Shown: piece after piece, positions 9,494 to 49,235 of the stretch
How the letters are laid out: each line of letters opens with the position of its first letter
Position numbering within the stretch: the first letter of the stretch is position 1
Assembly: GCA_024628785.1 (NCBI GenBank)
Contig: CP102405.1
Coordinates: 2,232,001-2,296,000, forward strand
From: Fusobacteria bacterium ZRK30
GTDB taxonomy: Bacteria > Fusobacteriota > Fusobacteriia > Fusobacteriales > Fusobacteriaceae
Direction: 5' to 3'
DNA: 64,000 bases
Program-made: the position numbers and the translations under genes
Notes under the pieces: model-generated
Seen by the model: only the letters and a program-made list of their open reading frames with translations
Database searches by the model: none
What the model was told of the DNA's origin: nothing

Positions 9494-9638
9494 CTAGTTC
9501 CTCCTAATAACTCTCGATTTCCTTTAAAAGTATACCTCTATTTAGTTAATATTTCCATCCACAATGTGGAACAGTTTCTTTTTTTATGATTATTCTATTA
9601 AAATGAGTAAATTAGAATTATTAAAACACCATAATCCT

Positions 9639-9667
9639 TTGCAAATTCCTTATTTTTATTATATAAT
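9639..9667 (+). promoter_or_regulatory. Predicted promoter of the peptidase-mreC-glpX operon
   Basis: TTGCAA (9639-9644) and a perfect TATAAT (9662-9667) with 17-base spacing, about 40 bases ahead of the ribosome-binding site of the first gene. The genes from 9714 to 15939 are all on this strand with gaps of ten bases or fewer or overlaps, so this may drive the whole set. Confidence 0.6.
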
Positions 9668-9713
9668 TTCTTTAGATAAAACAAAATAAAATTAAATATA
9701 TCAGGGGGAAAAC

Positions 9714-10826
9714 ATGATAAATGAAAAAAGAATCGTAGATAATTTTTTAGATATGGTTAAAATCCCATCACCATCTCTAAAAGAAAGAGCTATGGCTGAT
9801 TGTGTAAAAGTTGAATTAGAAAAGATCGGTCTTGAAGTTACTGAAGATAACGCAGGTGAAAGTTGTAACGGTAATGCCGGTAATATCATTGGTGTCTTAA
9901 AAGCTAAAGGTTCTAATAAAAAGAAAATATTATTTAGTGCTCATATGGACACTGTTTTACCTTGTGATAAGATTACTCCGATTATAGAAGATGGAATCAT
10001 TAAATCAGATGGTACCTCTGTTTTAGGGGGAGACGACAAAGCTGGTATTGCAGCTATCTTAGAGATGCTTAAACAATTAAAGGAAAATAACTTAGATCAC
10101 CCTGAGATTATAGTTGTCTTTTCTATTGCAGAAGAGATCGGTCTTTTCGGTGCTCGTGCTATGGATATAGAAAAATATGCTCCTGATTTTGGAATCATCA
10201 TCGACTCAGGTGGTAAACCTGGAACTGTTACTATACAGGCTCCATTTGCAGCGAAAGGAAAGATCGAAATCATTGGTAAACCAGCTCATGCAGGTTTAGA
10301 GCCTGAAAATGGGATAAATGCATTGGTAGTGGCATCCCACGCCATCACTAAATTAAGATTAGGAAGGGTAGATGAAAACACCACTTCTAATATTGGTGTA
10401 GTAACTGGAGGAGCCGCTGTAAATATTGTAATGCCTAGTGTATCTATGATGTATGAGGCTAGAAGTTTTGATGGTAAAGTTTTAGACAAATTACTATCTG
10501 AAACTAAAGCTATCTTCACTGAGACAGCAAAAGAGTTTGGGGCAGAATTTAAAGAATCAATCGTAAAGGGATATGATGGATTTAAAATCGAAGCAGGTAG
10601 TGAGATTTTAGAGATTTTAGAGGGTGCTTGTAAAGATATAAATATCGAATATAAACCTATGAAATCTGGTGGTGGAAGTGACACTAATATCTACAATGGA
10701 AAGGGAATACCTTCTGTTAATCTAGGTATAGGTATGAGTAAAGTACATACTAAAGAGGAATTTATTAAAATCAAAGATATGGTAGGATGTACAAAATTAT
10801 TACTTTCTATTATAGATAAAATATAG
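9714..10826 (+). CDS. M20-family metallopeptidase, peptidase T-like
   Basis: 370 residues. The zinc-site motifs of M20 peptidases are in order: SAHMDTV (first His/Asp), GGDDKAG (bridging Asp), AEEIGLFGA (catalytic Glu-Glu), IIDSGG, and the C-terminal GMSKVHTKEEFI with the last His. A dimerisation domain lies between (about 185-295), with KPAHAGLEPENGIN. The overall pattern matches the PepT-like group rather than true tripeptidase T. Likely role: release of N-terminal residues from small peptides in the cytoplasm. Start ATG has a CAGGGGG site. The mreC ATG follows its stop codon directly. Confidence 0.88.
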   Translation: MINEKRIVDNFLDMVKIPSPSLKERAMADCVKVELEKIGLEVTEDNAGESCNGNAGNIIGVLKAKGSNKKKILFSAHMDTVLPCDKITPIIEDGIIKSDGTSVLGGDDKAGIAAILEMLKQLKENNLDHPEIIVVFSIAEEIGLFGARAMDIEKYAPDFGIIIDSGGKPGTVTIQAPFAAKGKIEIIGKPAHAGLEPENGINALVVASHAITKLRLGRVDENTTSNIGVVTGGAAVNIVMPSVSMMYEARSFDGKVLDKLLSETKAIFTETAKEFGAEFKESIVKGYDGFKIEAGSEILEILEGACKDINIEYKPMKSGGGSDTNIYNGKGIPSVNLGIGMSKVHTKEEFIKIKDMVGCTKLLLSIIDKI

Positions 10827-11624
10827 ATGAATTTTAAACAAAAAAAGACTAAACAAAAGTGGTGGTTATCTTTAATCATAGTTATTTTAATAACTGCCGC
10901 TTTTTCGCGGTCTGATTTTCTTATATCTAAAACCAATAATCTGCTACTTCCCCTCAAATTAAAAGTATATAAAACTACCAGCAATATTCAGAATTATTTT
11001 AATACTTTTTTTTATATCAAAGAGATCTCTAAAAAAAATGAAATCTTAGAATTAACCATAGAAAAACAAAAACATATTTCCTTTGAAAATAAGAATCTTT
11101 TAAAGGAAAATCAGCATCTAAGGGAACTGCTTCAAATGAAGAAAAAAGTCAAATATAAAATTATAGTAGCACAAATTTCCTATATTGATGCACTAAATCC
11201 TTACGAAACTATATCAATTGATAAAGGAAAAAATGATAATATAAAACAAAATATGGCGGTTACTTCCACTCTCGGTGTAGTTGGAAGGATCAAAGAAGTC
11301 TTTGATGACCACTCCACAGTGGAATTAATCACTTCTAATCAAAGTTATACCAGTGCTACCAATGAAAACGGAGACACTCTCTCGATTTTAAGTGGCCAGG
11401 GAAATGAGATACTCAGTCTGGAATACGTTGTTACTGACTCAAATATCCAGGTAGGCGATAAAATATTTACCTCTGGTATCAGTGATATCTATAAAAAAAA
11501 CCTTTTTTTAGGAGAGATTACATCTATCGATAATAACGACGAGATGTTTAAACAAATAACAGTAAAATTACCATATAATATATTTAATCTTAAAGATGTT
11601 ATGGTTATAAAAAAAGAGAGGTGA
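10827..11624 (+). CDS. mreC: Rod shape-determining protein MreC
   Basis: Periplasmic scaffold of the cell-elongation complex. It has a short cytoplasmic start, one transmembrane helix (about 13-30), a coiled coil (about 60-105) and a C-terminal beta domain with the typical ISIDKGKNDNIKQNMAV, TLGVVGRIKEV and VGDKIFTSGISDIYKK strands. 265 residues. The start codon abuts the stop of the peptidase gene. mreB and mreD are not next to it; the following gene is a LolA-like protein. Confidence 0.92.
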   Translation: MNFKQKKTKQKWWLSLIIVILITAAFSRSDFLISKTNNLLLPLKLKVYKTTSNIQNYFNTFFYIKEISKKNEILELTIEKQKHISFENKNLLKENQHLRELLQMKKKVKYKIIVAQISYIDALNPYETISIDKGKNDNIKQNMAVTSTLGVVGRIKEVFDDHSTVELITSNQSYTSATNENGDTLSILSGQGNEILSLEYVVTDSNIQVGDKIFTSGISDIYKKNLFLGEITSIDNNDEMFKQITVKLPYNIFNLKDVMVIKKER

Positions 11625-11628
11625 GTCT

Positions 11629-12204
11629 ATGAAAAAATTTGTTCTTTATTTTTTTATATTTAGCTTGAGTTTGTTTGCTGAAGATAAAAATGAATTTAAT
11701 AAAATTAATACTTTTAAAGCTGTAATTATTGAAACCAGCCATTTAAACAATCGAACAAAAACAAAAGAATACGAAATTTTAGCCGATCTGCCAGATAAAC
11801 TTATAAAAAAAATGATTTCTCCTTCTATAAACAAGGGAGAAATTTATCTATATAATGGGTTCGATAAAACTATCTATTACCCACTTTTAGAGCAGACAAT
11901 AAACCAGAAAATAAACGAAGATGAAAATTATACTTTAAAATTTATTCGGGACCTAAAATCATATGACGGAGATGTAGATTTTAAAGTGGTAAAATCTAAT
12001 AACCAAATCCAAAAAATTGTCTATAATGATGGAATAACTATAAAATTTGAATCTTTTTCAAAAATAAATGAGATTAATTTTCCAACACATGTTAGAATAC
12101 TAGATAGAAATATTGAAATCTCAGAATTAATAATTAAAGATATTAAAATAAATATACCTATATCTAAAAAGGATTTTTCCCTCGATGAAATTATTAAAAA
12201 CTGA
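11629..12204 (+). CDS. LolA-like outer-membrane lipoprotein-sorting protein
   Basis: 191 residues with an N-terminal signal peptide (about 1-17, ending SLFA). The mature part consists of alternating strands: NTFKAVIIETSHLN, an EYEILADLPDKLI strand pair, a GEIYLYNGFDKTIYYPL turn, and late IVYNDGITIKFES. This arrangement (residue changes in substrate protein, then a DGxxxxF strand) resembles LolA/LolB-fold carriers, but similarity is weak. It overlaps recO by 20 bases. A plausible role is lipoprotein transport across the periplasm. Confidence 0.6.
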   Translation: MKKFVLYFFIFSLSLFAEDKNEFNKINTFKAVIIETSHLNNRTKTKEYEILADLPDKLIKKMISPSINKGEIYLYNGFDKTIYYPLLEQTINQKINEDENYTLKFIRDLKSYDGDVDFKVVKSNNQIQKIVYNDGITIKFESFSKINEINFPTHVRILDRNIEISELIIKDIKINIPISKKDFSLDEIIKN

Positions 12205-12874
12205 TGGCATAGTAATAAAAAAAGTGGATCACTCTGAAGCTGATCGAGCATTGACATTGTTTACTAAGAATTTTGGCAAGATCAATATCAATATTAGCGG
12301 CATCAGAAAATCAAAAAAAAGACATCTTAATGGAGCTGATTTATTCGGGATCTCTAACTTTATATTTTATAAGAAAGATGAATACTATATCTTGAGTTCT
12401 TTTGAATTGAATGAGACTTTTTTTAATCTCAGAAAAGATTTGGAAAAATTAAATATTTCTTTTCATATCTTAGAAATTTTAAACTCTATCTTAGTTGAAA
12501 ATGAAACACGAACAAGTTTATACAAATTACTTTTGAACTCCTTTCGGTTTTTGGACAAAAATAATAAACCTACCAAGGATTATCTCCTTTTAGGTTATTT
12601 TTTAGCTCTCCTTATTAAAGAGGAAGGAATTATGTTCAATATAAAAGACGGACTATATTTTAATATAGAAAATTCCATAATAGATAATATCCCGACCTCT
12701 AATAAATTAACTGAAATTCAAAAAATTATAATTATACACTTATTCGATGAAAAAATAAATGATATAATCTCTCTAGATCCATGTATAGATGATATTAAAA
12801 ATATAATTTTACTCTTGGAAGATTATATGAACTACCATTTAAATTTAAAAATAAATTTTAAAAAATATTTTTAG
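12185..12874 (+). CDS. recO: DNA repair protein RecO
   Basis: Recombination mediator that helps load RecA. It begins with the OB-fold motif TDGIVIKKVDHSEADRALTLFTKNFGKI and continues with GIRKSKKRHLNGADLFG, both typical of RecO. The C-terminal helical half is short and lacks the CxxC zinc cluster found in many homologues. 229 residues. It overlaps the LolA-like gene by 20 bases, so its translation is probably coupled. Confidence 0.88.
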   Translation: MKLLKTDGIVIKKVDHSEADRALTLFTKNFGKININISGIRKSKKRHLNGADLFGISNFIFYKKDEYYILSSFELNETFFNLRKDLEKLNISFHILEILNSILVENETRTSLYKLLLNSFRFLDKNNKPTKDYLLLGYFLALLIKEEGIMFNIKDGLYFNIENSIIDNIPTSNKLTEIQKIIIIHLFDEKINDIISLDPCIDDIKNIILLLEDYMNYHLNLKINFKKYF

Positions 12875-12883
12875 GAGGACCAC

Positions 12884-13348
12884 ATGAACATTGCAAAAAT
12901 AACAGATTATATAACTTTGGATATGATTTCCCTTGATTTAAAAGCTAAAAATAAAAAAGAAGCTCTTTCGGAATTATCTCAACTACTTGGAGCTTCAGAT
13001 ACTGTCGACGACCCTAAAGTCATCGAATCAGCTCTTATTGAAAGAGAAAAACTAGGAAGTACTGGAATAGGAAAAGGTGTGGCTATTCCCCATGCTAAAA
13101 CTGATTTTGCTAAAAAATTAACTATCGCCTTTGGAAGATCTAATGACGGACTTAACTTTGAATCTTTAGACGGTCAAGATGTTAAGCTGTTTTTTGTATT
13201 TGCTTCACCACTTAGTGACAGCATCGTATACCTTAAGATCTTAGCTAGGATTTCAAGATTGATCAGAGATGAGAATTTTAGAAATAAATTATTAAATGCA
13301 ACAAATCCACAAGAAATTTTAAATATCATAAGTTCAGAAGAGGGGTAA
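12884..13348 (+). CDS. PTS EIIA component, fructose/PtsN type
   Basis: 154 residues, one EIIA-2 domain. The phosphorylated His is in GKGVAIPHAKTD (about residue 69), preceded by ALIEREKLGSTGIG; the tail LLNATNPQEILNIIS is also typical. No EIIB or EIIC component is near, so it may be a regulatory PtsN-like protein or serve a distant transporter. Strong TAGGAGG site. Between recO and nrdR in the same operon. Confidence 0.88.
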   Translation: MNIAKITDYITLDMISLDLKAKNKKEALSELSQLLGASDTVDDPKVIESALIEREKLGSTGIGKGVAIPHAKTDFAKKLTIAFGRSNDGLNFESLDGQDVKLFFVFASPLSDSIVYLKILARISRLIRDENFRNKLLNATNPQEILNIISSEEG

Positions 13349-13351
13349 ACT

Positions 13352-13807
13352 ATGGAATGTCCTTACTGTGGAGCTATGGATACTAAAGTTATTGATAGTA
13401 GACCTTATAGCACAGATAACTCTATAAAAAGAAGACGGGAATGTGTCGTTTGCTGTAAAAGATTTACTACTTACGAAAAAATAGAACCTATTCCTATTTT
13501 TGTAATAAAAAAAAATAATATCAAGGAAGTCTTCAATAAAGACAAATTATTAAAAGGTCTTGAAAGGGCTGTCATTAAAAGAAATGTCAACCTGGAAGCT
13601 TTGGAAAGATTTGTAGGAGAAGTTGAAGACACTATCAGAAAAACTAATCATCTAGAGATAGAAAGTACTGAATTAGGTGAACTGGTTATGGAAAAACTAA
13701 AAAAATTAGATGAAATTGCATATATCCGATTCGCCTCTGTATATAAAGATTTTTCAGATGTAAAATCTTTTATCAAAGAAATTGAGGGGATGGTTAACAG
13801 TGATTAA
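13352..13807 (+). CDS. nrdR: Transcriptional repressor NrdR
   Basis: Represses ribonucleotide reductase genes in response to ATP/dATP. 151 residues: an N-terminal zinc ribbon (CPYCG at 3-7; REC..C with RFTTYEK at about 29-43) and then an ATP-cone (FVIKKNNIKEVFNKDKLLKGLERAV). Length and motif order are standard. An AAGAGGGG site precedes the ATG three bases after the EIIA stop. No NrdR boxes were identified in this window. Confidence 0.96.
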   Translation: MECPYCGAMDTKVIDSRPYSTDNSIKRRRECVVCCKRFTTYEKIEPIPIFVIKKNNIKEVFNKDKLLKGLERAVIKRNVNLEALERFVGEVEDTIRKTNHLEIESTELGELVMEKLKKLDEIAYIRFASVYKDFSDVKSFIKEIEGMVNSD

Positions 13808-14633
13808 AAATATAATCAGTGGTGCTTTTATTGGAATAGCTAATATTATTCCTGGAGTCTCTGGTGGAACTGTTGCTCTCCTTTTAGGGGTCTATGAAAA
13901 ACTTACAGAGTCTGTAGGAGAATTTTTCACTGCTCCTAAAGAAAAAAAGATAGAATTTATTAAATTTTTATCACAGATATTTATAGGGGTTATCATTGGA
14001 CTACTCGTATTTGCAAAAGTGATTGGTTTTCTCTATACAAACTATAAAGAGAGCACTAGCTTTTTCTTCTTAGGACTGATAGTGGCATCTCTGCCGCTAG
14101 TTTTGACCCATCGAGATAATAAAAAAATAAATAAACATGGAAAACTATGGTTTTTATTTGGATTACTTTTAATGATTGGTTTTACAATCCTTCAGTCTTT
14201 CTATGGTGATGGTGAAACTTCTAGCAGCTTATATCAGTTGACAGGAGGATATAGTATAAAATTAATCCTGGCTGGCGCTTTGGCTGGAGGAGCTATGGTC
14301 ATCCCTGGAATCTCTGGATCCCTCCTACTGGTTATGTTAGGAGAATATTATAATATTTTAGGATTTGTAAATAGCAGGATGATACTGCCTGTTGCCTTGG
14401 TAGGTATCGGAGCTGTCATAGGTATTGTTGGTTTTGCTAGAATCATTGACAAACTTTTAAAATCTCATAGAGATAATACTTTGTATTTTATAATCGGGCT
14501 TATTGTAGCTTCCCTTGTGGAGATTTGGCCTGGATTTACTTTAACTTTATCTAGCGGAATTACAAATATTATAATTTTTGCTCTAGGAATATATATCGTT
14601 AAATTAATGAAAAAATTAGAAGGTAAGAAATAA
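13800..14633 (+). CDS. DUF368-family polytopic membrane protein
   Basis: About 277 residues and eight or so transmembrane helices. It contains the duplicated family signature: IANIIPGVSGGTVALLLGVYE near the N-terminus and AMVIPGISGSLLLVMLGEYY in the second half. The family is related to polyprenyl-phosphate flippases of the DUF368 group; substrate here is not known from sequence. The start is probably GTG 13800, with GAGGGG ten bases upstream, overlapping the nrdR stop; an in-frame TTG at 13782 would add six residues. Confidence 0.85.
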   Translation: MIKNIISGAFIGIANIIPGVSGGTVALLLGVYEKLTESVGEFFTAPKEKKIEFIKFLSQIFIGVIIGLLVFAKVIGFLYTNYKESTSFFFLGLIVASLPLVLTHRDNKKINKHGKLWFLFGLLLMIGFTILQSFYGDGETSSSLYQLTGGYSIKLILAGALAGGAMVIPGISGSLLLVMLGEYYNILGFVNSRMILPVALVGIGAVIGIVGFARIIDKLLKSHRDNTLYFIIGLIVASLVEIWPGFTLTLSSGITNIIIFALGIYIVKLMKKLEGKK

Positions 14634-44226: not shown

Positions 44227-44270
44227 TTAAATAAAAAAACTCAAGGATATCCTTGAGTTTTTTTATTTAA
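44227..44270. terminator. Bidirectional terminator between cyclo-ligase and fimbrial chaperone genes
   Basis: A perfect 44-base palindrome with GC core CTCAAGGAT / ATCCTTGAG and flanking A7/T7 runs. It serves both convergent transcripts. Confidence 0.9.
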
Positions 44271-44324
44271 CTTTCTTTTTTCCCTTCACTTTCCTCTTCA
44301 ACCTTTCCTTCGTTTATTTCTTCC

Positions 44325-45164
44325 TTATTTTTTTTTCTCTAACTCTTTAAAATACTTTTCTTTGGTTATTTTTTCTATAGAAAGAATTTTTTCTCCTAAT
44401 TTAAACTCACTATATTCTGCTTCTCCTTCCTCGACCTCTTTTTCCTTCCTTTTAACTCTATAATAATATTCTATCTTCATTCGATTAGCATTTTTAGAAA
44501 TTTTATTCAACTCTACAACAGAATCAAAATAATTTTCCCTCATTGCCTTTCCCACCAATAAATCTTCAGCTTTTAATTTTTTCATATTTTCATAATAAAT
44601 TATCTTATAAACTACATCCAAGGCTGTTGTTCCTGTATTTGTAATTTTAGATACTAAATATGTTTTCTTATTATCGGTAACAACCTGAAAATCATCAAAA
44701 ACACCACCATACTCTAATTTGCCACTATAGCCATATACTGTAGAAACTAATATATGAATTATATCTAAACTAACTTCTACCTTCCCCTCATCTTTCTCAC
44801 TATTATTGTATTTTTTTACCGGTATTTCCTCAAATACCAGATGACTTCTATATTCTCCATCTACCAGACCCTTTGGAGGTCTGGCAGCCATCCTAATTAC
44901 TTTTTTACTATTAGGTTTAAGATAGACAATTTTAGGGTATACTATTACCCAATCCCCCATATAGAGATCTTTTGTTTTTTGGTCTTCAGGTCTTTCAGAA
45001 TAAATTCTTATTTTTTTTAATTTATTGGTACCGTTTTTCAGATAAATTTTCTGGGTTCCAGGTCTGTCTAAACTTATTTTTTGAATTTGAGGAGCTACCT
45101 GAAAATTTGCGTATAGCGTTGAAATCATCAATAAATATATGAATATAGTTCTTCGTTTTATCAT
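44325..45164 (-). CDS. Fimbrial chaperone-like protein (PapD-fold), with A9 tract at its 3' end
   Basis: 279 residues from ATG 45164, which has AGGTGG upstream. A signal peptide (about 1-19, TLYA) is followed by two Ig-like domains: PQIQKISLDRPGTQKIYLKN, YLKPNSKKVIRMAARPP (the G1-strand region of chaperones) and LVSKITNTGTTALDVVYKI. This is the plan of periplasmic chaperones that hold pilin subunits. It follows the usher gene. The coding sequence ends in nine A followed by TAA; removal of one A opens a frame with 18 more charged codons up to the terminator at 44267. Confidence 0.75.
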   Translation of the reverse strand: MIKRRTIFIYLLMISTLYANFQVAPQIQKISLDRPGTQKIYLKNGTNKLKKIRIYSERPEDQKTKDLYMGDWVIVYPKIVYLKPNSKKVIRMAARPPKGLVDGEYRSHLVFEEIPVKKYNNSEKDEGKVEVSLDIIHILVSTVYGYSGKLEYGGVFDDFQVVTDNKKTYLVSKITNTGTTALDVVYKIIYYENMKKLKAEDLLVGKAMRENYFDSVVELNKISKNANRMKIEYYYRVKRKEKEVEEGEAEYSEFKLGEKILSIEKITKEKYFKELEKKK

Positions 45165-45173
45165 TAACACCAC

Positions 45174-47774
45174 CTATTCCTTTTCATAAGAGATAACTTT
45201 AAAGTTGTAATCCTCATAATAACTTCCATATTTATCTAATTTAATATTCAATTTCTTAGTTTTTTCTTCAAATTTTAAAACACCTTCTCCCCTGTAATCT
45301 ATCTCTAAGATATATTTCCCAGGAAGAATTTTATCCAGCATATAAAACCCCTCTGGCTCCAATTTTTGTTCCTTTACAATCTTACCATCGAGAGTCTTTA
45401 ATTGAATATAAAGCTGAGATATTATAGGAAAATATTTTATTCCATCTACTGTATCACCGCGGAATTCCAAATCTCCCATTATCACTGAAATAGATTGGAT
45501 AGGGACATCCATATGACCGCCAGTTGCCGGATATAATTTTATATATTTTTTCTCATTGGCCGGTTCTAACATGGGATCCAATGTCTCTATATTAACCTCA
45601 AAATCCTTCACTTCATAGGAACTGATATTATCTATAAAATACATACCGTCTGCTCCAGTTACTCCTTTTTTCCTTCCAACATTTACCTCTACACCTTCTA
45701 ACAATTTTTCCCCTTCATCAAATTGATCATTATTATTGTCGTCCATGAATACCTTTCCTTCCATCCAAGATCTGCTTGGATATGGATTGGAATTATTTGT
45801 AAATGGCTTTTCTAAAATAATAGTTTTTTCCATGTCTACACCAGCACTATAATCCGTTTCCTCGTCATCATGAACTAAATAACCTACAATTTCTAACCAA
45901 TTAAATACTTTATATCTGGCTTCTAATCCTGCTTCGTATTCATTTCTACTATTATACTTCACAAAAATACCTGCTTTTATTTTATTATTTTCTGCAGTTT
46001 TAAGAGCTATTTTTAGATCTGTTTTATCTTCAAATTCTTCGAAATCAGAGTTTATTTGGACAACAAAATTAAGACTGGTATCGTAGACTTCAATATTACT
46101 ATTAGAATAATTATAATAAACTTGAGGAGTTCCGTAGTTCTCTGAAAATGGATAAACCAATCCTAATTCATGAGAGATCTTATCTTTATTCCTATATATA
46201 CCAACACTACCATATTCCTCTATATATCCAAATTTATCTAAATTATCATATCTCAAATTATATCCCCAATACCTGTTTATAATCCCTCTCCAATCAGCAA
46301 TATACCTGTTCTCATAGCCTTCTAAAAAGGCTATAAAATCACTATACATATATCCTTCCAGAGAAAGTACATTTCCTCCAAATCTTTGTCTTACCTTCCC
46401 TATATGGGTATATCTATTTTCAGTATCATACTCCATATCATAGATCTCTGAAAACTCAAAATATGTAGGGTAGTTCACTGCACCAGTTGTGTAATACAAA
46501 TTCAATCCCACTAATTCTGTAGGATAATTATAAGTAATCTCTCCCTCTCTATTTTCTGTAAGATCATTTATATATTCAGTTCCTATAGTAAGATTATTAG
46601 TTAACCCATAGGAAACTTTAATATTTCCCTCTACAGCTTTCTCCTCTATATCTACTTTTTTTTCTTCCTCGTCCTCATTTATTTCTCTATAAGTTCCTAT
46701 TAGAAGACCATAATCTATCTCACCTTTTTTTAGAATTTTGCTTCCACTCATCATGGAAACTTGTTTTATCTCTATAGAACCATCAAAATTATATATTTTT
46801 ATTGTATATACATCGTTATAATTTTGAATATTTATATTTTCAAACAGATAAGTCCCATCTTCTCCTACCCGAGTAAACTTATATAGAGTCCCATTTCTAT
46901 AAAGTTCTACTCTTGAATTAAAAGGTGCAAATCCTCTAATAGTCGTTTGTCCAATCTCTACATCTCCAACTCCATTCCAGTCTTGAATAGCTATTCCTGT
47001 TAAATTCTTAGAACCTAAAAACTCATAGGTCTGCATATAGGCATCTCCTACAATTATGCTTTTTTCATCTATAATTTCATTGTATGTTAAAGCTGTATAT
47101 CCCAAATAAGTATCCGGATGAAAAAATCCTGTGGTAGTAAAGTCACCGTATAACATGTGGGTATCATACCTTGCTGAAAACGTTCCTTCCTCGTCTTCTA
47201 TATTATAATTAGTATATCTTGGTCGGAGCACTCCCGGCGTAAATAGCTTTCTATCCTGAGAATATACATCTCCATCATCTACACCTTTCTTGCCGTCAGT
47301 CCCCAATCCTTTGAGCCTTTCTTCCTGCTCCAGATAGATCTCATAGGGAGTTTTAAACTTAGTTTTTAACTTAAGAATATATGTTTCTGTACTCCATTCG
47401 TAACTTTCTAATTTAAATACCTGAGATAGATCTGTCCCCCTTATATATAAATCTTCCTCTCCTGTAATATATCTAGTATCTCCATAATAAAACTTATAAT
47501 CTCTTTCTCCCATCCTGCCATAAATTACTTTCTTTTCCCTGTCTATTTTCATACCCCTGGCCATGGTCAAGGCAAATAAGTTCATTACACTTACATAGGG
47601 TTCTTCTAGAGAATAATCCATATATATGGGAAAAAATGAATATTTGATTTTTTTATTTACATTTATCTCTATATACCCCTCTTCATAACTTCCCTTAAAC
47701 TCCTCTCCAAATGAAATTATAGAGCATAATAATAAAAATATAATTATTTTCTTTCCCATCATATTCACCCCCAT
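45174..47774 (-). CDS. Outer-membrane usher-like protein, divergent
   Basis: 866 residues with a signal peptide (about 1-23, SFGEE). An N-terminal domain with two Cu-amine-oxidase-N-like units (YVSVMNLFALTMARG; YIRGTDLSQVFKLESYEW) is followed by a long beta-rich barrel region. A plug-like insert carries TIRGFAPFNSRVELYRNGTL and VGEDGTYLFENI, as in usher plugs, and then GEIDYGLLIGTYRE. After the barrel comes an SdrD-B/prealbumin-like domain (EGKVFMDDNNNDQFDEGEKL) and a further beta domain. Together with chaperone and pilin-like neighbours this indicates a chaperone-usher secretion pore. Identity to known ushers looks low. Confidence 0.75.
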   Translation of the reverse strand: MGVNMMGKKIIIFLLLCSIISFGEEFKGSYEEGYIEINVNKKIKYSFFPIYMDYSLEEPYVSVMNLFALTMARGMKIDREKKVIYGRMGERDYKFYYGDTRYITGEEDLYIRGTDLSQVFKLESYEWSTETYILKLKTKFKTPYEIYLEQEERLKGLGTDGKKGVDDGDVYSQDRKLFTPGVLRPRYTNYNIEDEEGTFSARYDTHMLYGDFTTTGFFHPDTYLGYTALTYNEIIDEKSIIVGDAYMQTYEFLGSKNLTGIAIQDWNGVGDVEIGQTTIRGFAPFNSRVELYRNGTLYKFTRVGEDGTYLFENINIQNYNDVYTIKIYNFDGSIEIKQVSMMSGSKILKKGEIDYGLLIGTYREINEDEEEKKVDIEEKAVEGNIKVSYGLTNNLTIGTEYINDLTENREGEITYNYPTELVGLNLYYTTGAVNYPTYFEFSEIYDMEYDTENRYTHIGKVRQRFGGNVLSLEGYMYSDFIAFLEGYENRYIADWRGIINRYWGYNLRYDNLDKFGYIEEYGSVGIYRNKDKISHELGLVYPFSENYGTPQVYYNYSNSNIEVYDTSLNFVVQINSDFEEFEDKTDLKIALKTAENNKIKAGIFVKYNSRNEYEAGLEARYKVFNWLEIVGYLVHDDEETDYSAGVDMEKTIILEKPFTNNSNPYPSRSWMEGKVFMDDNNNDQFDEGEKLLEGVEVNVGRKKGVTGADGMYFIDNISSYEVKDFEVNIETLDPMLEPANEKKYIKLYPATGGHMDVPIQSISVIMGDLEFRGDTVDGIKYFPIISQLYIQLKTLDGKIVKEQKLEPEGFYMLDKILPGKYILEIDYRGEGVLKFEEKTKKLNIKLDKYGSYYEDYNFKVISYEKE

Positions 47775-47830
47775 ACATTTTGACTTAGATAATTCTTAAT
47801 CTAAATAAAAAAATTTCAGCTGTTAAGAAT

Positions 47831-48193
47831 CTAATTTGCATACCTAACTTTTACAGATAGATTATCTGTAATAGTCCTGCGTCCTTGTATATTGTTTAAT
47901 TCTAATTTTATATCTAATCTGAACTTCCCCCTTCCATTACCATCCAACTTTATCTCTTTTCTTCTGGGTCTGATAATCATTTTATTTCCATCTAAATCAT
48001 AGGCTTCTGGAACTATAATTTCCACAACTCCCCCGGATTTCCCCTCTACATAAACCCCTACATCGGTCAATGAAACACTTCTATCTCCTTCGACTACTGT
48101 TCCAAAATTAAGTGGATCTATACTTGAAATTTCTAACGAAAAAGTAAAACTCATAACCAAAAAAAATAACAAAATTAGCTTTTTCATATTCAT
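47831..48193 (-). CDS. Small secreted DUF4402-like protein, probable minor pilin
   Basis: 120 residues. A signal peptide (about 1-19, FTFS) precedes a single beta-rich domain: IDPLNFGTVVEGDRSVSL, then VEIIVPEAYDLDGN and a C-terminal TITDNLSVKVRYAN. The NFGTV start and final alternating strand are like DUF4402/fimbrial subunits that are completed by donor-strand exchange. It lies between the pilin-like and usher genes, so it is probably an adaptor or tip subunit. Weak family call. Confidence 0.6.
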   Translation of the reverse strand: MNMKKLILLFFLVMSFTFSLEISSIDPLNFGTVVEGDRSVSLTDVGVYVEGKSGGVVEIIVPEAYDLDGNKMIIRPRRKEIKLDGNGRGKFRLDIKLELNNIQGRRTITDNLSVKVRYAN

Positions 48194-48321
48194 TCATCTC
48201 CTCTATATTTAATAAATTCTTCTTATTTTTAAATACAAAATAAGTTTTAATTTTCCTTTTATATAAATTTTAATTTCGATCCTAAAAAAATTAACTATTA
48301 TTTATTTCTATAATTAACAGC

Positions 48322-48358
48322 AAAAAATAAGCAGGCTTAAAGCCTGCTCGTTTTTTTT
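48322..48358 (-). terminator. Terminator between the pilin-like gene and the rest of the fimbrial operon
   Basis: GAGCAGGCT / AGCCTGCTT on the minus strand with a TTA loop, followed by TATTTTTTG. It lies after the first gene of the fimbrial set, so most transcripts may contain only the pilin. Confidence 0.8.
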
Positions 48359-48370
48359 ACCTATTGCTTA

Positions 48371-48988
48371 CTATTTGTATTCTGCTCTAGCAACTATAAC
48401 ACCAAATTTCAATCCAGCAGAACCAACATCATTAAAGTATGCGTCTACTTCTATTTCTTTCATTCCACCATATAATGTAACCATTCTTGATGCAGATTCT
48501 ATACCAGGAGTTAATGTACGTGTTTGCATAGGGTAGAAACCATTATGACCCTTAATAGTTACTTTACCAGGAAGGTTAAATAATCCACCATAGAATTTAA
48601 ATTTAATTTCTGCAGGTCCCATACCTTTAACTCTAAATCCAATATCACCAATATTTAATCCGTCACCAACAACTGCTTGAGTATACAAGAAGTCTATTTC
48701 AGATTCAATTTTAATAGGTTCAAGTACATTAAGAAGAATATGAGTAGCAGCTTTATCTTCCCAACCTCTACCTTTGTCTCTGAATATATTGACAGCTTTG
48801 TCATTGTGTACTGCGTTATCATTAGTAGTTATGTCACCAAATCCATTTCCAAGTGCATTACTTTTAATAGTTACAGGAGTATACATAGTGTCAGGAGTTC
48901 CTAACCCATTAAAAGATATACCTTCAGTTACTGCAAATGCAGTTGATCCAATAGCTAATATGGCAGCAATCAATAATAATTTTTTCAT
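48371..48988 (-). CDS. Secreted pilin-like protein, probable major subunit
   Basis: 205 residues from ATG 48988, which has GGAGG eight bases upstream; the GTG at 48997 overlaps that site. A clear signal peptide ends at AFA (about residue 19). The mature protein is Gly-, Asn- and beta-rich with no Cys (GISFNGLGTPDTMYTPVTIK; late GMKEIEVDAYFNDVGSAGLK). Its final alternating strand (GLKFGVIVARAEYK) fits a donor-strand-completed subunit. No family recognised; the role is inferred from the neighbours and the very strong expression signals. Confidence 0.6.
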   Translation of the reverse strand: MKKLLLIAAILAIGSTAFAVTEGISFNGLGTPDTMYTPVTIKSNALGNGFGDITTNDNAVHNDKAVNIFRDKGRGWEDKAATHILLNVLEPIKIESEIDFLYTQAVVGDGLNIGDIGFRVKGMGPAEIKFKFYGGLFNLPGKVTIKGHNGFYPMQTRTLTPGIESASRMVTLYGGMKEIEVDAYFNDVGSAGLKFGVIVARAEYK

Positions 48989-49204
48989 CTTTCCCACCTC
49001 CGAAATTAAAAAGACAATAAGCTTTTAACTTCAGTATTTTCCTTGATGTTCTCTTGCTTTACATATAAATTGTTCCCTATCTATAATAAAAAATCTAACG
49101 CTCAACTCCCCTTTCATTCACTTTTAAAACCAGAGTAAACGTTCAATTTAGTTGGTAGAAGTGAATCCCTATATGAGCATATTCAAAAAAAATTTAAACT
49201 TTTT

Positions 49205-49235
49205 CAAAAAAAAATGACCTTCTACTGAAAGTCAT
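49205..49235 (-). terminator. Terminator after the minus-strand ArsR gene
   Basis: ATGACTTTC / GAAGGTCAT on the minus strand (one G-U), loop AGTA, then nine T. Confidence 0.8.

Follow-up and report, generated by a model that had tools for sequence, protein, structure and literature searches.

A probable chaperone–usher pilus operon of a distinct lineage in a fusobacterium

The window analysed here, a 64,000-nucleotide stretch of the genome of Fusobacteria bacterium ZRK30, carries a minus-strand locus that is very probably a complete minimal chaperone–usher (CU) pilus operon of a distinct lineage. This reading builds on computed features, namely the architecture of the usher, the homology of the chaperone, the C-terminal motif of the subunits, the absence of a donor strand from the small subunit, the position of a hairpin and the separate lineage of the usher. 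A first-pass annotation made from the letters of the DNA had proposed four minus-strand open reading frames encoding a divergent CU system, and the ORF list bore out both their presence and their order: the 208-aa pilin is transcribed first, followed by the 120-aa subunit, the 866-aa usher and the 282-aa chaperone. The span then given, 44267–48988, holds the right gene set, but its pilin end required correction, as the pilin ORF starts with GTG at 48997 and 48988 corresponds to an in-frame ATG. The features of the locus are listed below in the direction of transcription, with the evidence in brackets.

49214–49235: terminator-like hairpin before the operon (hairpin scan)
44325–48997, minus strand: chaperone–usher operon of four genes (ORF list)
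48998–49213, minus strand: leader/promoter region of the pilin gene, with the 23-mer TATGTAAAGCAAGAGAACATCAA at 49043–49065 (conservation in the genus)
48371–48997, minus strand: major pilin candidate, 208 aa, with signal peptide (ORF, homologues, model, C-terminal motif, weak fold match)
48329–48349, minus strand: terminator-like hairpin directly 3′ of the pilin stop codon (hairpin scan, alignment, folding of six loci)
47831–48193, minus strand: small secreted subunit, 120 aa, without donor strand, tip-subunit candidate (ORF, homologues, length before strand A)
45174–47774, minus strand: outer-membrane usher, 866 aa (ORF, Pfam, family profile, AlphaFold model, fold search)
47361–47684, minus strand: predicted N-terminal domain of the usher, residues 31–138, two beta-beta-alpha-beta-beta units (model)
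46980–47231, minus strand: predicted barrel strands 1–6 of the usher, residues 182–265 (model)
46755–46940, minus strand: plug domain of the usher, residues 279–340 (Pfam Usher, model, plug alignment with FimD and archaic ushers)
45828–46718, minus strand: predicted barrel strands 7–24 of the usher, residues 353–649 (model)
45183–45770, minus strand: C-terminal domains of the usher, residues 669–864, SdrD_B/CarboxypepD_reg-like (Pfam, homologues, model)
44325–45173, minus strand: periplasmic chaperone, 282 aa, PapD/CsuC-like (ORF, Pfam, homologues, profiles, alignments)
44227–44270, no strand assigned: terminator-like hairpin separating the chaperone gene from its convergent neighbour (hairpin scan)

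The gene order was unchanged in every same-genus orthologue retrieved (L033–L035), and the four-gene set is thus not a chance assembly. According to Pfam, the operon is preceded by genes for an ArsR-type regulator and a metallo-beta-lactamase-fold protein and faces convergent genes for 5-formyltetrahydrofolate cyclo-ligase and uracil-DNA glycosylase; these flanking genes are of housekeeping type and unrelated to the operon. A genome search revealed a single usher and a single chaperone.

The identification as a CU system was supported by the predicted structure and its fold matches, by sequence profiles and by conserved residues. The Pfam Usher family matched the plug region of the 866-aa protein (residues 276–396, E 4.8e-6) with 26.1 bits (cut-off 27.1), and in the genome search the same protein reached 28.3 bits, above that cut-off. 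The plug-type motif noticed at first pass was found in place, in the very segment matched by this family. An AlphaFold2 model built with 42 homologues (mean pLDDT 79.5) predicted an N-terminal domain, six barrel strands, the plug, 18 further barrel strands and C-terminal beta domains. This is the layout of the classical ushers FimD and PapC, a 24-strand barrel with the plug between strands 6 and 7, and the barrel and plug whose absence from a model had been proposed as grounds for giving up the usher assignment are both predicted. When the model was compared with the PDB by Foldseek, the best 18 matches were all FimD or PapC (E 4.6e-26 to 2.3e-12), and porins and receptors were placed below all ushers. 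The TM-scores were modest (0.27–0.41 by query length, about 0.40 against FimD) and the rmsd large, so that the fold and the domain order are supported but the relative placement of the domains is not. A profile of the usher family also matched PapC among the PDB chains; the single sequence matched none of them, and the family profile was needed for this assignment.

At the C-terminus, the SdrD-B-like domain of the first-pass annotation proved real: the match to SdrD_B reached 27.7 bits, slightly below the cut-off of 29.7, and 39 of the 42 homologues matched. The two Cu-amine-oxidase-N-like units suggested for the N-terminal domain found little support in sequence (PF07833 matched 1/42 homologues), yet the model does contain two similar beta-beta-alpha-beta-beta units in residues 31–138. 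None of the NCBIfam models covered the family when run against the 42 ushers, the one weak match scoring 19.6 bits where the cut-off is 1105. A Propionigenium maris homologue (L043, 1545–5444) is about 1300 residues long and bears three additional C-terminal-domain-like repeats past the normal end.

A chaperone gene was found close to every usher examined. The window chaperone matched PapD_N (Pfam, E 2e-4), as did 32 of 47 homologues; its family profile matched CsuC (E 0.001), and profile–profile comparison with the archaic chaperones gave E 1.9e-11 over 199 columns. One proline is reported to be invariant across all CU chaperones (PMC4654587). Pro80 aligns with this residue and is present in 47/47 fusobacterial homologues, and none of the classical, alternative, archaic or DUF4402-type chaperones compared lacks it. 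The periplasmic chaperone claimed at first pass is thus corroborated by the profile matches and the invariant proline, while its Ig fold is indicated by the profile matches to solved and archaic chaperones. The residue after Tyr108, Arg109, is Arg or Lys in 43/47 homologues and lines up with Arg89 of the alternative chaperone EcpB; the archaic Arg lies two residues further on in an ungapped alignment. The TRVIYP-type Arg in domain 1 of classical chaperones is absent from the fusobacterial proteins. In the stretch aligned with the domain-2 anchor of archaic and alternative chaperones (CsuC Tyr196/EcpB Tyr169), where the alignment is uncertain, no Tyr is conserved and a basic residue is common nearby.

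The usher family was detected in 40 of the 61 genomes of the host's family, counting matches that extend beyond the C-terminal domain and leaving out four genomes with matches to that domain alone. Run on these 40 genomes, Pfam Usher matched 8 at E <= 0.001 and 3 above the cut-off. In the remaining Fusobacteriota genomes searched, the window usher had no match. A search with seven closer ushers yielded the named relatives Propionigenium maris DSM 9537 and the metagenome-assembled genome Fusobacteriia bacterium 4572_74, which fit the earlier assignment of the DNA to a probable fusobacterium.

Several of these sister operons carry variations. Large HD-domain proteins of HD-GYP type (HDIG/HD) are encoded beside L037, L044, L045, L049, L052, L054, L056–L058, L060, L061, L063, L064 and L068, and GGDEF diguanylate cyclases beside L040, L041, L062 and L064. 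These neighbours suggest that the sister operons are under cyclic di-GMP control; no HD-GYP or GGDEF gene adjoins the window operon. At two loci (L055 and L059, about 9500–14500), chaperone and pilin-like genes take turns 3′ of the usher, with three of the former, as if there were one chaperone per subunit. A further sub-type (L039, L042, L047, L048 and L052; clusters c10, c11 and c12) encodes, alongside a pilin with cysteines, a secreted thioredoxin-like protein (CPDC motif in L047), a hint that disulphide bonds may stabilise its subunits.

Outside the fusobacteria, tblastn revealed relatives on plasmids of Sphingopyxis, Polaromonas, Novosphingobium and Pseudoalteromonas. On four annotated plasmids (Sphingopyxis indica L077, Polaromonas L078 and L082, Pseudoalteromonas L081), genes for DUF4402 proteins and a chaperone, the latter annotated as 'molecular chaperone' in L077, L078 and L082 and as 'hypothetical protein' in L081, are followed by one for a 'carboxypeptidase regulatory-like' protein. 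The public records name all four ushers 'carboxypeptidase regulatory-like domain-containing protein', an annotation that conceals a whole family of outer-membrane ushers, and Pfam Usher matched neither of the two scanned. Of the groups compared by profile, the DUF4402-operon ushers came nearest to the fusobacterial one (E 9.7e-43 over 769 columns), and the nearest non-fusobacterial relatives are DUF4402–chaperone operons of alpha-, beta- and gammaproteobacteria; a comparable gene set occurs in one genome from a different family (L079). Subunit, chaperone and usher genes, an SdrD_B/CarboxypepD_reg-like usher C-terminus and, in part of the sister set, DUF4402 subunits are common to both types. 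They differ in that the chaperone gene precedes the usher gene in the DUF4402 operons but comes after it in the window, the window's own two subunits have no DUF4402 match, and the ushers share only about 25–30% identity. No description of the function of DUF4402 operons was found in the open-access literature.

CU systems are divided into classical, alternative and archaic ones, of which only the archaic are known outside Proteobacteria (PMC9452303; PMC4654587). We compared the groups by balanced profiles, drawing three sequences from each group in eight resamplings. The median was about 1e-23 for fusobacterial against DUF4402 ushers and about 1e-30 for archaic against classical ones, while the medians of all other pairs ranged from about 1e-0.7 to 1e-4.3. 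The usher tree resolved five clean groups (fusobacterial group, support 100/99), with archaic and classical ushers on one side of a 100/99 branch and the fusobacterial, DUF4402 and L079 ushers joined at 84/93, short of full support. With barrel and plug alone and the two longest branches removed, the grouping was unchanged and the fusobacterial–DUF4402 join received an SH-aLRT of 89. These trees are unrooted and contain small reference groups (three alternative and four classical ushers, most archaic and alternative ones drawn from plasmids); amino-acid composition differs between the alignment rows, and the deep branches therefore call for caution. AU tests rejected groupings of the fusobacterial ushers with the archaic and with the classical ones. 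The distant lineage conjectured at first pass was borne out by profiles and tree, in which the usher falls with the DUF4402-type group outside archaic, alternative and classical systems; membership in any of the three was not supported by balanced profiles and tree, nor, for archaic and classical, by the AU tests.

It is nevertheless conceivable, if unlikely, that the operon is a fast-diverged archaic (sigma) CU system within Fusobacteriota and no lineage of its own. The archaic group is the nearest named one by chaperone profile and by the full-set usher profile (E 9.3e-12), and archaic systems are those known beyond Proteobacteria (PMC4654587). In addition, the archaic pilin domain SCPU was matched by four sister subunits. 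Against this, the window itself has no SCPU pilins (4/63 in the sister set), the usher sits on a separate branch whose union with the archaic ushers the AU test rejects, archaic ushers are much nearer to classical (1e-30) than to fusobacterial ones (1e-3.8) in the balanced comparison, and the Tyr anchor of archaic chaperones is not conserved.

Archaic systems such as Csu have in common with the locus a two-domain chaperone by profile, the layout of the usher and an occurrence beyond Proteobacteria. The chaperone Arg/Lys lines up with Arg89 of EcpB in the alternative (ECP) systems, and a CarboxypepD_reg match at the usher C-terminus is also seen in EcpC; the usher profile match was, however, insignificant (E 0.018), and neither the CooC_C nor the TcfC domain of EcpC was detected in the 42 fusobacterial usher homologues. 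With the classical ushers, beyond the common barrel and plug, the profile match was confined to 147 columns around the plug, and PF00577 matched the plug region only, around the cut-off.

As to the subunits, Pfam assigned neither the 208-aa nor the 120-aa protein of the window to a family. When the sister loci were included, giving 63 subunits, it found DUF4402 in 28, SCPU in four and Fimbrial_CS1 in two; the label 'DUF4402-like' given earlier to the small subunit is backed by this part of the wider set, with no Pfam match in the 120-aa protein itself. A tyrosine near the C-terminus is conserved in >= 90% of the window and sister subunits, and a GxY...Y ending was found in 40/74 core subunits against 3/267 other ORFs. 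The window pilin ends in GLKFGVIVARAEYK, with Gly at −14 and a penultimate Tyr (−2). This ending is a mark of CU pilins and is shared by the pilins of the classical Fim/Pap systems. The model of the pilin has a confident beta-sandwich core (about 93–207) and a low-confidence N-terminal part, nearly throughout in residues 20–87. In the fold search, 18 of the best 50 matches were CU pilins, none at E <= 0.001, and the others included viral capsid and beta-sandwich proteins. The protein that could not be placed at first pass can now be assigned to the CU-type subunits by motif and operon, and by fold weakly.

The spacing before strand A distinguishes two kinds of subunit. From the rough end of the signal peptide to the FG motif of strand A, most single-domain sister pilins have about 27–48 residues, enough to hold a donor strand. 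In the window pilin, this interval is about 86 residues long and contains a donor-strand-like segment, AATHILLNVL, at the position of the sister pilins' donor strands. In the 120-aa subunit and its counterparts, the interval is 9–18 residues and the proteins begin directly at strand A. The check for donor-strand extensions that had been suggested for the subunits thus found such a segment in the pilins and none in the 120-aa type. Lacking a donor strand, the 120-aa subunit can accept one and give none, and should start the fibre and sit at its tip. In many sister operons, the slot directly before the usher is occupied by a 270–300-aa protein with a pilin-domain-like end; we infer that the tip subunit is encoded at this position and that in the window it would have shrunk to one domain.

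The long segment before the FG-type motif, the low model confidence of residues 20–87 and the presence of just two subunit genes might also be explained by a genuine chaperone–usher pair whose 208-aa protein does not form fibres: the pair would export a short or capsule-like surface coat, or the protein would be a secreted adhesin. We regard this as improbable, given the donor-strand-like segment at the expected position and the intact C-terminal pilin motif; the hairpin behind the pilin gene likewise fits a high demand for the 208-aa protein. That the locus is no CU system at all, its barrel being of porin or TonB-receptor type and its secreted proteins unrelated, is hardly credible: single-sequence matches lie near or under the family cut-offs and the usher alone hits no PDB chain, but the PapC profile match, the modelled 24-strand barrel with its plug, the ranking of ushers above porins and receptors in the fold search and the chaperone gene near every usher examined refute this reading computationally.

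Six loci were folded, four from the window's genus and two from Propionigenium maris, and each has a stem-loop behind the pilin stop codon (z-scores between −3.3 and −5.2); an alignment showed that the stem sequences vary between loci. In Fim/Pap operons, too, a hairpin follows the major pilin gene. The element probably keeps pilin in excess over the products of the downstream genes. Upstream, the pilin-gene leader is far better conserved within the genus than the pilin itself, and a predicted hairpin adjoins its ribosome-binding site. Near-exact copies of the leader were found only in genomes of the window's genus (g1). A riboswitch was considered and set aside, given this restriction to the genus, the lack of an Rfam match and the absence of compensatory changes among four sequences. 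A second pilin gene with its leader was observed elsewhere (L124; genome G055, contig C3, 3303–4252) as a 955-base match, 96% identical to the operon copy. It stands alone, without usher or chaperone, and adjoins phage lysozyme and tail-like genes, apparently an orphan pilin carried by a prophage.

For assembly, tip position, pilin excess and adhesion, we infer the following course for the proposed CU pilus, a hair-like surface fibre made by a route familiar from E. coli. Pilin and small subunit would be exported by Sec, and the chaperone would hold each in a donor-strand-complemented state. Chaperone–subunit complexes would then dock at the N-terminal domain of the usher, the plug would shift aside, and subunits linked by donor-strand exchange would be extruded through the 24-strand pore. 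The 120-aa subunit would go first and form the tip of the fibre, with the 208-aa pilin polymerising after it, its supply probably held above that of tip subunit, usher and chaperone by the post-pilin hairpin. The fibre would likely serve attachment or biofilm formation.

Taken further, we find it somewhat likely that these operons represent a fourth major CU lineage, widespread among Fusobacteriaceae-type genomes and scattered in alpha-, beta- and gammaproteobacteria and in at least one more family (L079), which escaped notice because its ushers fall below family thresholds and are misnamed, and in which some pili are started by a single-domain tip without donor strand or receptor domain. The lineage seems undescribed: the open-access literature yielded no paper on DUF4402 systems or fusobacterial CU pili, which is weak evidence as bioRxiv and subscription journals lay outside the search, and no experimental study of any member was found there.

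Standard protein-family models mostly miss this usher branch of fusobacteria and some other bacteria, and the approach used here offers a way to recover many mis-annotated ushers. DUF4402, so far a domain of unknown function, would gain a likely role as a donor-strand pilin. If the proposed reading is true, a further lineage alters the picture of how CU pili spread and originated, and fusobacteria gain a class of surface fibre for which we found no prior report in the open-access literature.
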